Of a stretch of 64,000 nt of DNA, positions 6,824-10,058 are shown in pieces (positions within the stretch are counted from its first letter, which is position 1; the number at the start of each line of letters is the position of its first letter). Under the pieces are notes generated by a model. That model saw only the letters and a list, made by a program, of their open reading frames with translations. It did no database searches and had not been told where the DNA came from. The DNA comes from Allomuricauda sp. ARW1Y1 (GTDB lineage Bacteria > Bacteroidota > Bacteroidia > Flavobacteriales > Flavobacteriaceae): NCBI RefSeq assembly GCF_013407935.1, contig NZ_JACBZU010000001.1:124001-188000 (forward strand), in the 5' to 3' direction. A program made the translations under genes and the position numbers.

Positions 6824-6876
6824 AGGGTATTTCTATAAGAATCGTATTGATTTTATCGTAAGGTGACGTTTTCATC

Positions 6877-6897
6877 AACCTGAACTTGATTCAGGTT
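6877..6897. repeat. CTTGA-loop palindromic repeat, intergenic copy A
   Basis: AACCTGAA, loop CTTGA, TTCAGGTT: an 8-base perfect stem with 5-base loop. Same family as the copies at 6921-6948 and 8295-8322, with different but still complementary stem bases. Lies between the leuS stop and its terminator. Confidence 0.75.
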
Positions 6898-6920
6898 CCG
6901 ATAAAACTGATTTAATTGTA

Positions 6921-6948
6921 TGAGATTCCGAATCAAGTTCGGAATGAC
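6921..6948. repeat. CTTGA-loop palindromic repeat, intergenic copy B
   Basis: Stem ATTCCGAA/TTCGGAAT around TCAAG (CTTGA on the other strand), flanked by TGAG and GAC as in the copy inside leuS. Sits 18 bases past the leuS stop codon. This is the form of repeat I know as dispersed in many flavobacterial genomes. Confidence 0.8.
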
Positions 6949-6965
6949 AGCAACGATGTATCGGA

Positions 6966-9900
6966 TTACCCGACAATATTCACAATCTTGCCCGGCACCA
7001 CAATGACTTTCTTGGGTTCCCTGCCCTGTAACTGCTCTTTTGTTTTTTCATGGGCCAAAACAGCGGCTTCAATCTCATCCTTGCCCATATCCAACGGTAA
7101 TTCCAATTTGAAACGCATTTTCCCATTAAAGGATATCGGATATTCCTTGCTGCTTTCCACCAAGTACTTTTCCTCAAACTTCGGGAAAGGCGCTTCCGCA
7201 ATAGATTCCGTATGCCCCAAACGACTCCACAGCTCTTCGGCTATATGTGGCGCATAAGGTGATACCAAAATAGCCAATGGCTCCAGAATAGCTTTACTGG
7301 TACATTTCTGGGCCGTCAATTCGTTTACACAGATCATAAAGGTGGATACAGAGGTGTTGAACGAAAAGTTCTCGATATCCTCTTCCACCTTTTTGATGGT
7401 TTTGTGCAAGGTTTTTAGATTTTCGGCAGTGGGTTCCGCTTCGGCTCCGCTCAGCGACCCATTTGTATATGGCGCATACAACTTCCATAGTTTCTTTAAG
7501 AAGGAATGTACTCCTGTAATCCCCGCCGTATTCCAAGGCTTGGATTGCTCCAAGGGTCCCAAGAACATTTCATACAAACGCAACGAGTCTGCCCCGTACT
7601 CCTCACAAATGGCATCGGGGTTGACGACATTGTATTTGGATTTGGACATTTTTTCGATTTCTCGATAGGTTTTATTACTATCAAAGAATGCATATTTATA
7701 ATCTTTCCCATAGGGACTATTAACAAATGCTTTTACATCCAATTCATCAGAAGCATTAACGAATTCAACAGGTACTCTTATTGAAAGGTGCATATTGGAA
7801 GTATCATAATTTATTTCAAGTACTTCAATACTTTTACCTTCTTCTAAAAGGAATTTATCAAACTGTTCTTTAGCAATTTTTTCAAGCTTCGCTTCTTCAT
7901 ACTTTAGAACTGAATCCTCATCAGTAATTATTGTTGCTTGAAAAGTTATTTCTTCAATATCCGAATTACTTTTAACAACTGCATTTACATCAATAATCTT
8001 CCGAAGCATAAACGCACTCGTCCCCGTAATCATCCCTTGGTTGATCAACTTTTTGGCAAATTCGTCTTTGGGCACATAGCCCATATCAAACATAAACTTC
8101 TGCCAAAAGCGGGAATACAACAAGTGGCCCGTTGCGTGCTCACTTCCTCCGATATACAAGTCTACATCTTGCCAATAGTTGATGGCTTCGGGAGAGAAAA
8201 TAGCGTCATCATTCCGTGGATCCATATACCTATTAAAGTATTGGGAACTTCCTGCCCAACCTGGCATGGTATTCAATTCCAATGGATAAATACCGTCATG
8301 CTGAACTTGATTCAGCATCTCATCCCCCTTGTCTGACCCATCGACTGCGCTCAGGGTGACAAGGTCATTGGAAACTACTTTATTGTTCTTCGCGTCCCAT
8401 GCCCACTCGGTGGCATTGCCCAATGGTGGCTCGCCTGTTTCGGTGGGGAGGTATTTTTCTACTTCGGGCAGTTCTAAAGGCAAATATTTTTCATCGATCA
8501 TCTGCGGCATACCGTCCACATAATACACGGGGAAGGGTTCGCCCCAGTACCGCTGACGGCTAAATACGGCATCACGCAAACGATAATTCACTTTGCCCTT
8601 GCCATGTCCGATTCGTTCCAATTCAGCAATGATTTTCTTCATGGCATCTTTATAAGAAAGACCGTTCAAAAAATCAGAATTGGCAATAACAGTTGTTTCC
8701 TTGTCGGCAAATGCCTCTTCGGAAATATCGACCCCTTCGAAAATGTTGGGAATAGGTATGTTGTAATGTTTGGCAAAATCGTAATCGCGTTGGTCGCCAC
8801 AGGGTACGGCCATTACCGCTCCTGTTCCGTAGCTGGCCAATACGTAGTCTCCAATCCAAATAGGAATGGGTTCCTTGGTAAACGGATGCTCCGCATACGC
8901 TCCCGTGAACACCCCCGAAATGGTTTTTACATCGGCCATACGGTCGCGCTCGGACCGTTTTGCCGTGGCTTCCACATAAGCATCCACCTCAGCTTTTTGT
9001 TCTGGCGTAGTGATTTTAGCCACCAACTCGTGCTCTGGGGCCAAGGTCATAAAACTTACCCCAAAAATGGTATCGGGGCGAGTGGTGAAGACTTCTATCT
9101 CGTAAGGCTTCTCGACTGCGCTCGAAGTGACATCGTCATTCGTAATCACCTCTTGGTCGCTTCGACTACGCTCAGCGTCCAATACATTAAAAGTAACCGA
9201 AGCCCCAACGGAACGTCCGATCCAGTTGGTCTGGGAATCCTTTAAAGGTTGTGGCCAATCAATTTTGTCCAATCCGTCCAACAAACGCTGTGCGTAAGCG
9301 GTGATGCGCATACTCCATTGCGTCATTTTTTTGCGGATTACAGGATGTCCACCGCGCTCGGAAACTCCGTTTACGATTTCATCGTTCGCCAACACAGTCC
9401 CCAAAGCGGGACACCAGTTCACTTCGGTACCGGCCAAATAGGTCAATCTATATTTTAAAAGGATTTCTTGCTTTTCCTTATCGGAATAGCCATTCCAGGT
9501 CGCTGCATCAAAACTTGGAGTGTCATCATCACAAGCGGCTTCGACATTGCTATTTCCCTCTTTTTCAAAAATGGAAATCAAACTATCAATGCTTTCCGCT
9601 TTATCGGATTTCTTGTTGTACCACGCATTGAACAATTGGATAAAGATCCATTGCGTCCATTTATAATATTGTGGGTTGGAGGTACGTACTTCGCGGCTCC
9701 AATCAAAAGAAAAACCGAGCTGGTCCAACTGCTCACGGTATCTGTTGATGTTGTTTTCCGTAGTGATGGCAGGGTGTTGACCCGTTTGGATGGCATATTG
9801 CTCTGCGGGCAACCCGAAGGAATCGTAGCCCATGGGATGCAACACATTGAACCCCTTGTGACGTTTGTAACGTGAATAGATGTCCGTTGCAATGTAACCC

Positions 9901-10058
9901 AGCGGATGCCCTACGTGCAAACCTGCACCGGACGGGTAGGGAAACATCGACAATGCATAAAATTTAGGTTTGTCGGAATCGTTGGATGCCTTAAAGGTTT
10001 CGTTTTCTGCCCAATACTTCTGCCATTTGGCCTCAATCTCGCGGAAATCGTAATTCAT
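6966..10058 (-). CDS. leuS: Leucyl-tRNA synthetase with in-frame insertions
   Basis: Charges tRNA-Leu in the cytoplasm. 1030 residues, roughly 100 more than I expect for Bacteroidota LeuS. Intact signatures: HVGH (residues 48-51), the editing-domain TTRPDTIFG region, PGWAGSS, and KMSKS (803-807). The excess is explained by palindromic elements translated at about residues 294-317, 566-589 and 868-875, and by a low-GC stretch at about residues 693-793 just before KMSKS that encodes an unfamiliar, lysine- and glutamate-rich segment. The frame stays open throughout, so the gene looks functional. It is divergent from ftsX. The start at 10058 gives MNYDFREIEAKWQKYW, standard for the family. Confidence 0.96.
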   Translation of the reverse strand: MNYDFREIEAKWQKYWAENETFKASNDSDKPKFYALSMFPYPSGAGLHVGHPLGYIATDIYSRYKRHKGFNVLHPMGYDSFGLPAEQYAIQTGQHPAITTENNINRYREQLDQLGFSFDWSREVRTSNPQYYKWTQWIFIQLFNAWYNKKSDKAESIDSLISIFEKEGNSNVEAACDDDTPSFDAATWNGYSDKEKQEILLKYRLTYLAGTEVNWCPALGTVLANDEIVNGVSERGGHPVIRKKMTQWSMRITAYAQRLLDGLDKIDWPQPLKDSQTNWIGRSVGASVTFNVLDAERSRSDQEVITNDDVTSSAVEKPYEIEVFTTRPDTIFGVSFMTLAPEHELVAKITTPEQKAEVDAYVEATAKRSERDRMADVKTISGVFTGAYAEHPFTKEPIPIWIGDYVLASYGTGAVMAVPCGDQRDYDFAKHYNIPIPNIFEGVDISEEAFADKETTVIANSDFLNGLSYKDAMKKIIAELERIGHGKGKVNYRLRDAVFSRQRYWGEPFPVYYVDGMPQMIDEKYLPLELPEVEKYLPTETGEPPLGNATEWAWDAKNNKVVSNDLVTLSAVDGSDKGDEMLNQVQHDGIYPLELNTMPGWAGSSQYFNRYMDPRNDDAIFSPEAINYWQDVDLYIGGSEHATGHLLYSRFWQKFMFDMGYVPKDEFAKKLINQGMITGTSAFMLRKIIDVNAVVKSNSDIEEITFQATIITDEDSVLKYEEAKLEKIAKEQFDKFLLEEGKSIEVLEINYDTSNMHLSIRVPVEFVNASDELDVKAFVNSPYGKDYKYAFFDSNKTYREIEKMSKSKYNVVNPDAICEEYGADSLRLYEMFLGPLEQSKPWNTAGITGVHSFLKKLWKLYAPYTNGSLSGAEAEPTAENLKTLHKTIKKVEEDIENFSFNTSVSTFMICVNELTAQKCTSKAILEPLAILVSPYAPHIAEELWSRLGHTESIAEAPFPKFEEKYLVESSKEYPISFNGKMRFKLELPLDMGKDEIEAAVLAHEKTKEQLQGREPKKVIVVPGKIVNIVG
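7437..7456. repeat. CGCT..AGCG palindromic element inside leuS (copy G)
   Basis: CGCTTCGGCTCCGCTCAGCG, closely related to the element at 9158-9177 (CGCTTCGACTACGCTCAGCG). It encodes LeuS residues about 868-875 (SLSGAEAE), a segment absent from the LeuS proteins I recall. Confidence 0.65.
7670..7990 (-). other. AT-rich block within leuS
   Basis: Counting by hand, 87 of the 300 bases at 7681-7980 are G or C (29%), against roughly 40-48% in neighbouring leuS lines. The block encodes residues about 690-796, immediately before KMSKS. Confidence 0.7.
8295..8322. repeat. CTTGA-loop palindromic repeat inside leuS (copy C)
   Basis: Stem ATGCTGAA/TTCAGCAT, loop CTTGA, flanked by GTC and CTCA, the same layout as intergenic copy B at 6921-6948. 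Encodes LeuS residues about 580-589 (EMLNQVQHDG). Confidence 0.8.
8327..8364. repeat. Extended palindrome with GACTGCGCTCA core inside leuS (copy D)
   Basis: CCTTGTC pairs with GACAAGG and CCC with GGG around a TCGACTGCGCTCA core. It abuts copy C, so the two form one composite insertion translated as about residues 566-589 (DLVTLSAVDGSDKG...). Confidence 0.75.
9109..9132. repeat. TTCTCGACTGCGCTCGAA element inside leuS (copy E)
   Basis: Imperfect palindrome with the TCGACTGCGCTC core shared with copy D and followed by GTGACA as in D. Encodes about residues 309-317 (VTSSAVEKP) of LeuS, just before the editing-domain TTRPDTIFG segment. Confidence 0.75.
9158..9177. repeat. CGCTTCGACTACGCTCAGCG element inside leuS (copy F)
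   Basis: 20-base palindrome with CGCT/AGCG ends, 25 bases from copy E in the opposite sense; together E and F look like one composite insertion. Encodes LeuS AERSRS near residues 294-300. Confidence 0.75.

Follow-up and report, generated by a model that had tools for sequence, protein, structure and literature searches.

Several families of short repeated elements, and a DUF559 nuclease cassette, occupy loops of leucyl-tRNA synthetase in frame in Flagellimonas/Allomuricauda

Three loops of leucyl-tRNA synthetase (LeuS) in the genus Flagellimonas/Allomuricauda are very probably recurrent landing sites for short repeated elements (A, CGTC-type REP hairpins; B, a repeat of ~25 nt that is weakly palindromic; C, a GC-rich hairpin; and others) that are retained in frame. 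Occupancy of these loops differs between close relatives, the elements are all in frame, and copies of A and B are spread over the genome. In addition, the first loop, site 1, is probably where a mobile element of a new class homes. This element would be a cassette with palindromic ends that encodes only a Vsr-like DUF559 nuclease, lies in frame and is never spliced, and its separate lineages would each keep to one site, in leuS, recG or metH or in N-terminal position before hemD or rnpA. The initial annotation had described palindromic elements accepted in frame inside leuS; beyond this, our analysis shows that several element families replace one another at three loops, one of which can also hold the nuclease cassette. 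The window, which is the whole stretch of 64,000 nucleotides analysed, belongs to a genome of 3.53 Mb in this genus (hereafter the ARW1Y1 genome) and contains the following features.

6966..10058, minus strand: leuS, leucyl-tRNA synthetase, 1030 aa, a single open frame
9102..9179, minus strand: LeuS insertion site 1 (aa ~294-319), at the entry of the editing domain, with two B units in the ARW1Y1 genome
9155..9181, minus strand: B unit, read as DAERSRSD, its core repeated 22 times in the ARW1Y1 genome, with a weak fold
9108..9132, minus strand: B-type unit, read as VTSSAVEK
8295..8360, minus strand: LeuS insertion site 2 (aa 567-588, VTLSAVDGSDKGDEMLNQVQHD), a composite of B and A units
8294..8321, plus strand: A unit, with a CGTC tag, an 8-bp stem, a 5-nt loop and the tail CTC
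8338..8361, minus strand: B-type unit of site 2
7432..7472, minus strand: LeuS insertion site 3 (aa ~863-873), with a B-type unit (7432-7460) read as GSLSGAEAEP
6873..6950, no strand assigned: intergenic pair of A-type hairpins, beyond the 3' end of leuS

The ARW1Y1 genome has 9 copies of core A (CTGAAYTTGNTTCAG) and 22 of core B (GAGCGNAGTCGAAG), and the reversed-pattern control of each gave no match. Two of these 31 cores of 14-15 nt are in leuS. A genome-wide count of both families, as proposed in the initial annotation, thus found the repeats inside other genes as well, with at least four of the 31 matches lying deep within long genes that are conserved (two in leuS and one each in mfd and prmC). 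Two further matches are near the N-terminal ends of conserved frames (L254 and L257), probably before the start, and five are in frames of 151-223 aa. In mfd (L244) and prmC (L248) of this genome the B-type units are in frame, and a second B-like segment was seen by eye in the mfd frame.

The A unit of leuS forms a strong hairpin (z -3.9), and none of 200 shuffled sequences was as stable. Its stem, loop and stem read ATGCTGAA/CTTGA/TTCAGCAT, the stem begins with AT pairs, and the CGTC tag at 8294-8297 is unpaired in the fold. The two A-type units of the intergenic dimer at 6873-6950 are also strong hairpins (z -3.9 and -4.4). By eye, this dimer is present in L009, L010, L012 and L013 and absent in L011, L018 and L046 (seven loci, that of the ARW1Y1 genome included). 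The B units folded as 8338-8364, 9108-9132 and 7432-7461 gave z of +0.75, +0.70 and +0.12, no better than shuffled sequences, and the unit folded as 9151-9178 was weakly better (z -1.7). Because B units fold at or near the level of shuffled sequences, the segment 9109-9177 is repeated yet not clearly palindromic, and B is not filed as a REP since it does not form a stable stem-loop. The description of palindromic elements within leuS therefore stands for the position of the named segments, which are in frame in an open gene, and for the A unit, and fails for the B units, which are not significantly palindromic.

A match to LeuS was found in all 71 genomes of the genus that were searched, and a full frame was obtained from 67 of them (L009-L075, ARW1Y1 included); G054 and G061 gave pieces of LeuS (L076-L078) and G048 and G055 gave weak hits, all of which stand outside the 67. 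All 67 full frames are open, with lengths of 932-1188 aa and a median of 992 aa. The HVGH and KMSK motifs are invariant in 39 aligned LeuS. Rfam at the gathering threshold gave no match in leuS. The alignment of the genus shows variation at three narrow sites and in the region before KMSKS. This last region (window 7720-8000, aa ~680-780), which by its position we take to be the leucine-specific domain, is hypervariable in the genus, with alignment blocks of up to 126 columns. Four LeuS pairs that are otherwise about 93% alike have windows of 37-72% identity there; they include ARW1Y1 with the genome labelled as the same species, and the ARW1Y1 type of the region is common to L010.

An AlphaFold model of the window LeuS from a 39-row alignment was too poor for use (pTM 0.36, mean pLDDT 61), and an alignment to the solved LeuRS of Thermus thermophilus (1h3n) was used instead for this reason. 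The model weakly supports aa 297-316, 569-586 and 865-871 as predicted low-confidence stretches between secondary-structure elements. In the alignment to 1h3n the site-1 stretch falls mostly in a gap.

The states of the three sites were assigned with hand-made patterns on short peptides. At site 1, 23 of the 67 LeuS have B, 10 a partial B, six a repeat-like type F, one A and five the DUF559 cassette; 16 are empty and six are unclassified. Site 2 is empty in 41 and holds a short palindrome of the same length in 10, B+A in seven, A+A' in five and type C, a GC-rich hairpin, in four, so that 55 of the 67 (ARW1Y1 being counted in the 67) are without an A-bearing form. At site 3, 31 are empty, B is read in two different frames (18 and 10 LeuS) and type C is found in eight. 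In several species a further palindrome, D, is nested within A or B units. Ten of the 67 LeuS have no element at any of the three sites.

The initial annotation had named relatives as the test of insertion, and identical segments in all relatives were not seen. The 8295-8360 segment is absent in relatives, including L012 from a genome (G041) labelled as the same species, and the flanks align, which supports insertion in frame. These alignments, the site states and the changes on the tree largely contradict the view that the segments are an ancestral LeuS loop lost in some species, with the likeness to repeats due to chance or to convergent codon usage. We consider this view very improbable. 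It would be consistent with site 2, where the occupied form also replaces several codons, so that empty alleles differ in these codons too and no single clean insertion is visible. It does not account for cores that occur 31 times in the genome, two of them in leuS, with no match in the control, for the alternatives at one site that are unrelated element families, one nested in another, or for the T. thermophilus LeuRS, which is without most of the site-1 segment.

On a LeuS tree from 814 columns outside the sites, the fewest state changes were 30 at site 1, 21 at site 2 (13 when the palindrome of the same length is ignored) and 28 at site 3; these counts are inflated because 21 of the 64 inner branches are below 80% support, and they do not separate gain from loss, a blindness that also favours the ancestral-loop explanation. 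The turnover is seen in single pairs as well. L043 and L074, 0.938 identical over the rest of LeuS, have different states at each of the three sites, with flanks that are 0.94, 0.92 and 0.94 identical. The 12 A-bearing site-2 alleles are scattered on the tree, and the right flank G[IV]YPLEL is found in all 12 and in none of the other 55, while their left flank is shared by 11 of the 12 and by two of the 55. At sites 1 and 2 the flanks (~20-25 codons) are no less alike when the states differ. At site 3 the likeness is slightly lower (p 0.1 for 26 close pairs and 9e-5 for 162 further pairs, the pairs being non-independent). Long co-conversion tracts were therefore rejected, since the identity of the flanks is undiminished at the first two sites and falls slightly at site 3; short shared haplotypes remain. 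A drop of identity in sliding windows was not taken as co-conversion because it is attributed to the inserts themselves.

B cores are concentrated in leuS, with 40 of 913 across the 67 genomes in this gene compared with about 0.7 expected if they were uniform (leuS being 3 kb of 3.9 Mb); for A cores the count is 9 of 491. Other B copies number 18 (median) in the 32 genomes with B in leuS and 4 in the 35 without it (rank test p 3e-7, kinship ignored). The number of A copies had no significant association with leuS occupancy (p 0.23, 67 genomes, kinship ignored).

We propose that the empty 932-aa form of LeuS is the older one and that elements would arrive by rare copying from other copies in the genome. 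Occupied alleles might then pass between species by short-tract recombination. The encoded peptides would stay in the finished enzyme because selection would leave only in-frame copies in tolerant loops. A Y1/RAYT-type transposase, which is thought to mobilise GTAG REPs, is an unlikely agent of this movement. The presence of such an enzyme in the same genome, by which GTAG REP/RAYT systems are recognised, was not found here: PF01797 had no match in the ARW1Y1 genome at E 1e-3, yet this genome has 9 A and 22 B cores. Therefore, any moving enzyme comes from elsewhere or is of another kind. PF01797 matches in 13 of the 71 genus genomes would agree with a past or visiting transposase source.

The short repeats at site 1 of the window leuS occupy the same loop as the DUF559 cassette. 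In five of the 67 LeuS (L066, L071, L072, L073 and L074), the LeuS frame includes a complete DUF559 (Vsr-like) domain at site 1 (Pfam DUF559, E 6e-37 for the insert of L066), and the cassette leaves about 140-186 aa in the enzyme. PF04480 matches 70 of the 71 genus genomes, a tally that is not a count of cassettes because many matches are short and partial. The cassette is not confined to the genus. The LeuS cassette domain matches 112 of 299 sampled genomes of the family (E 1e-3), and 18 of the best 30 matching family loci (L259-L288) are LeuS in which the cassette has this same position; one of these 18, L288 from a genome that is 64% complete, has a broken cassette frame. In a sample of the phylum, 80 of 395 genomes match at E 1e-20, some of them in frames above 800 aa. 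Three of the five cassette alleles of the genus end in NHPYQ, as do many B-occupied alleles, and a fourth ends in DHPHQ. The shared NHPYQ ends hint at a possible entry of the cassette into alleles that already had repeats. As a weak hint, they also speak against a protection of site 1 from the cassette by B elements.

Related domains were found in other conserved genes; Pfam was run on L170, L192, L190 and L201, and the others in these genes were recognised by their motifs. In RecG, a related DUF559 domain is in frame between DEQHRFG and MTATPIPRT. The 881-aa RecG frame occurs in six of the 70 genomes with a match; the other RecG listed are nearly all of 712-773 aa, with a match that breaks near query position 451-460 and resumes near 590-598 (exceptions G037, G039 and G055). 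In L295, the RecG of G025, a 12-residue in-frame stretch resembles both cassette ends and is likely to be the scar of a lost cassette. MetH has DUF559 between its cap and B12-binding domains (L170, L183, L275 and L280), and N-terminal DUF559 fusions were found in HemD (L190, L203, L208 and L283) and in RnpA (L201, L202 and L209). The RecG of the ARW1Y1 genome is empty, and the one full-length DUF559 match of this genome is an RnpA fusion (L201, C1:416500-419800), a 276-aa frame that joins the nuclease to the RNase P protein. DUF559 was also seen within HsdR-like type I restriction subunits of 1226-1230 aa (L198 and L199, Pfam on L198); these were left out of the insert count because the domain may be natural there. 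In L273, DUF559 is fused in frame on the C-terminal side of a 573-aa ORF that in our reading resembles histidinol dehydrogenase.

Four nuclease motifs, which we take to be the PD-(D/E)XK core, are all present in 23 of 23 LeuS, 8 of 8 RecG and 4 of 4 MetH domains, and one of four HemD domains lacks one of them. Pfam found DUF559 alone in the inserts of L066, L170 and L192, plus MTES_1575 below the cut-off, and no splicing domain as in inteins. Rfam at the gathering threshold gave no match of any family, group I and II introns included, in L074, L192, L170 and L190. In 33 cassettes (21 LeuS, 8 RecG and 4 MetH), folding is stronger at the ends than in the interior, with best-window z medians of -2.7 and -2.1 compared with -0.8. 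Single cassettes vary in their ends (z from -0.2 to -4.5 at the 5' end and from -0.4 to -4.4 at the 3' end), and some interiors also fold well.

Host-gene labels on a tree of 82 distinct domains (chosen, non-random loci, with few columns and some long branches) required 10 changes, the minimum for 11 groups, and shuffled labels required 40.3 on average. RecG (8/8), MetH (4/4) and HemD (4/4) each form one group, and LeuS (23 domains) needs four changes. Among L066, L072, L073 and L074 (six pairs), dS of the cassette is 0.28-0.68 compared with 1.08-1.67 in the rest of leuS, with dN/dS of 0.02-0.07. In the four pairs that include L071, cassette and backbone both have saturated dS, and dN of the cassette (0.17-0.18) exceeds that of the backbone (0.07-0.08), so that L071 gives no sign of recent transfer. 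In RecG, dS of the cassette is below that of the backbone in 12 of 12 computable pairs, for example 0.19 compared with 1.63, but only slightly in several (1.14 compared with 1.38), with some backbone values near saturation and the backbone saturated in the other three pairs. The RecG insert is less constrained than RecG, since its dN is higher than that of the backbone in 12 of 15 pairs. As judged from synonymous divergence, the cassettes are younger than their hosts in the pairs where dS was computable. Across genera, identities of the LeuS cassette and its backbone correlate (r 0.52), and the cassettes are at least as alike as the backbones in 11 of 210 pairs; the older copies are therefore largely consistent with descent as well. 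Site-specific lineages that spread between hosts, as in homing, were thus found in the clustering by host gene and in dS below that of the host where computable. The cassettes look like homing elements without splicing, and cleavage of the empty allele would be their putative activity.

A link between the cassette and the short elements was also considered, in which the DUF559 nuclease with its palindromic ends moves or creates small GC-rich palindromic elements, LeuS site 1 is one target, and solo type C units are one-ended or deleted derivatives. This is possible but rather doubtful. Solo type C units at sites 2 and 3 resemble cassette ends by eye, and the short in-frame stretch of the L295 RecG resembles both ends; against this, the cassettes showed no link in sequence to either the A or the B family.

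Our data provide, in one essential gene and 67 genomes, a natural series of empty, repeat-bearing and nuclease-bearing alleles. This series allows direct tests of the movement of palindromic repeats in bacteria that have no transposase dedicated to them, of the tolerance of proteins for such repeats, and of whether homing can persist when neither protein nor RNA is spliced, splicing being commonly regarded as the cost of entering an essential gene. If the proposal for the cassette is true, the host enzyme has its own parasite permanently built in as an additional domain. The findings are also a warning for annotation, as some housekeeping enzymes of Bacteroidota carry foreign nuclease domains or peptides derived from repeats.

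Rickettsia palindromic elements are short hairpin repeats accepted in frame in proteins. The LeuS elements share in-frame insertion with empty orthologues and differ in their host, a free-living marine flavobacterium. The likeness to these elements drawn in the initial annotation holds for the A unit, a short hairpin repeat read in frame. In PMC3733652 (Di Nocera 2013), CGTC-1 and CGTC-4 of R. conorii correspond to RPE-6 and RPE-4, and RPE-1 is called longer. The same paper reports that CGTC REPs occur in Bacteroidetes and that REPs lie within many genes, among them tRNA synthetases of three other species, and the suggestion that such in-frame insertion may be undescribed was thus too strong. 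The A unit shares with CGTC REPs, as they appear there, the unpaired CGTC/TGTC tag, a stem of 8-9 bp starting from AT pairs and a loop of 4-5 nt; its 8-bp stem and 5-nt loop are the lengths of family 2. Dispersed and paired copies (9 cores and the dimer at 6873-6950), the lack of a dedicated transposase, and copies in genes including tRNA synthetases and repair genes are also shared. The A unit differs in its tail, CTC and not CCA, which does not exclude it because, according to the paper, 'most' tails fit CCA. Two further differences are that several families here replace one another at three sites of a single gene within one genus and that B units form no stable stem. For the leuS elements of the window, the phenomenon as such is known, and the case is new and striking.

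Of greater importance is the nuclease cassette, although it lies outside the window itself; it has not been described as far as the literature searched shows. Searches on DUF559, Vsr-like and non-splicing homing, LeuS insertions, repeats of this genus and palindromic elements in Flavobacteria and Bacteroidetes, which covered titles and abstract openings and few subscription journals, gave no description of the cassettes or of the leuS elements among the papers listed. VsrA of Caulobacter is a DUF559, PD-(D/E)XK, Vsr-like protein that brings about the SOS response of some of the cells in which the ScmA methyltransferase is missing, and the available text on it does not describe it as an insert in another gene (PMC12907096). 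Compared with inteins and homing endonucleases, in part as generally known and in part from the portions available of PMC6083498 and PMC3943268, the cassette shares a fixed site in conserved genes, lineages by site, sporadic occurrence, conserved nuclease motifs and an age below that of the host in datable pairs. It differs in having no Pfam splicing domain, no Rfam intron and palindromic ends. An in-frame homing insertion with no detectable splicing domain is reported for the methylase of phage ShiLan in the accessible text of PMC11855218. The HNH nuclease of ShiLan is out of frame, whereas the nuclease of the DUF559 cassette is in the frame of its host, in bacterial housekeeping genes.
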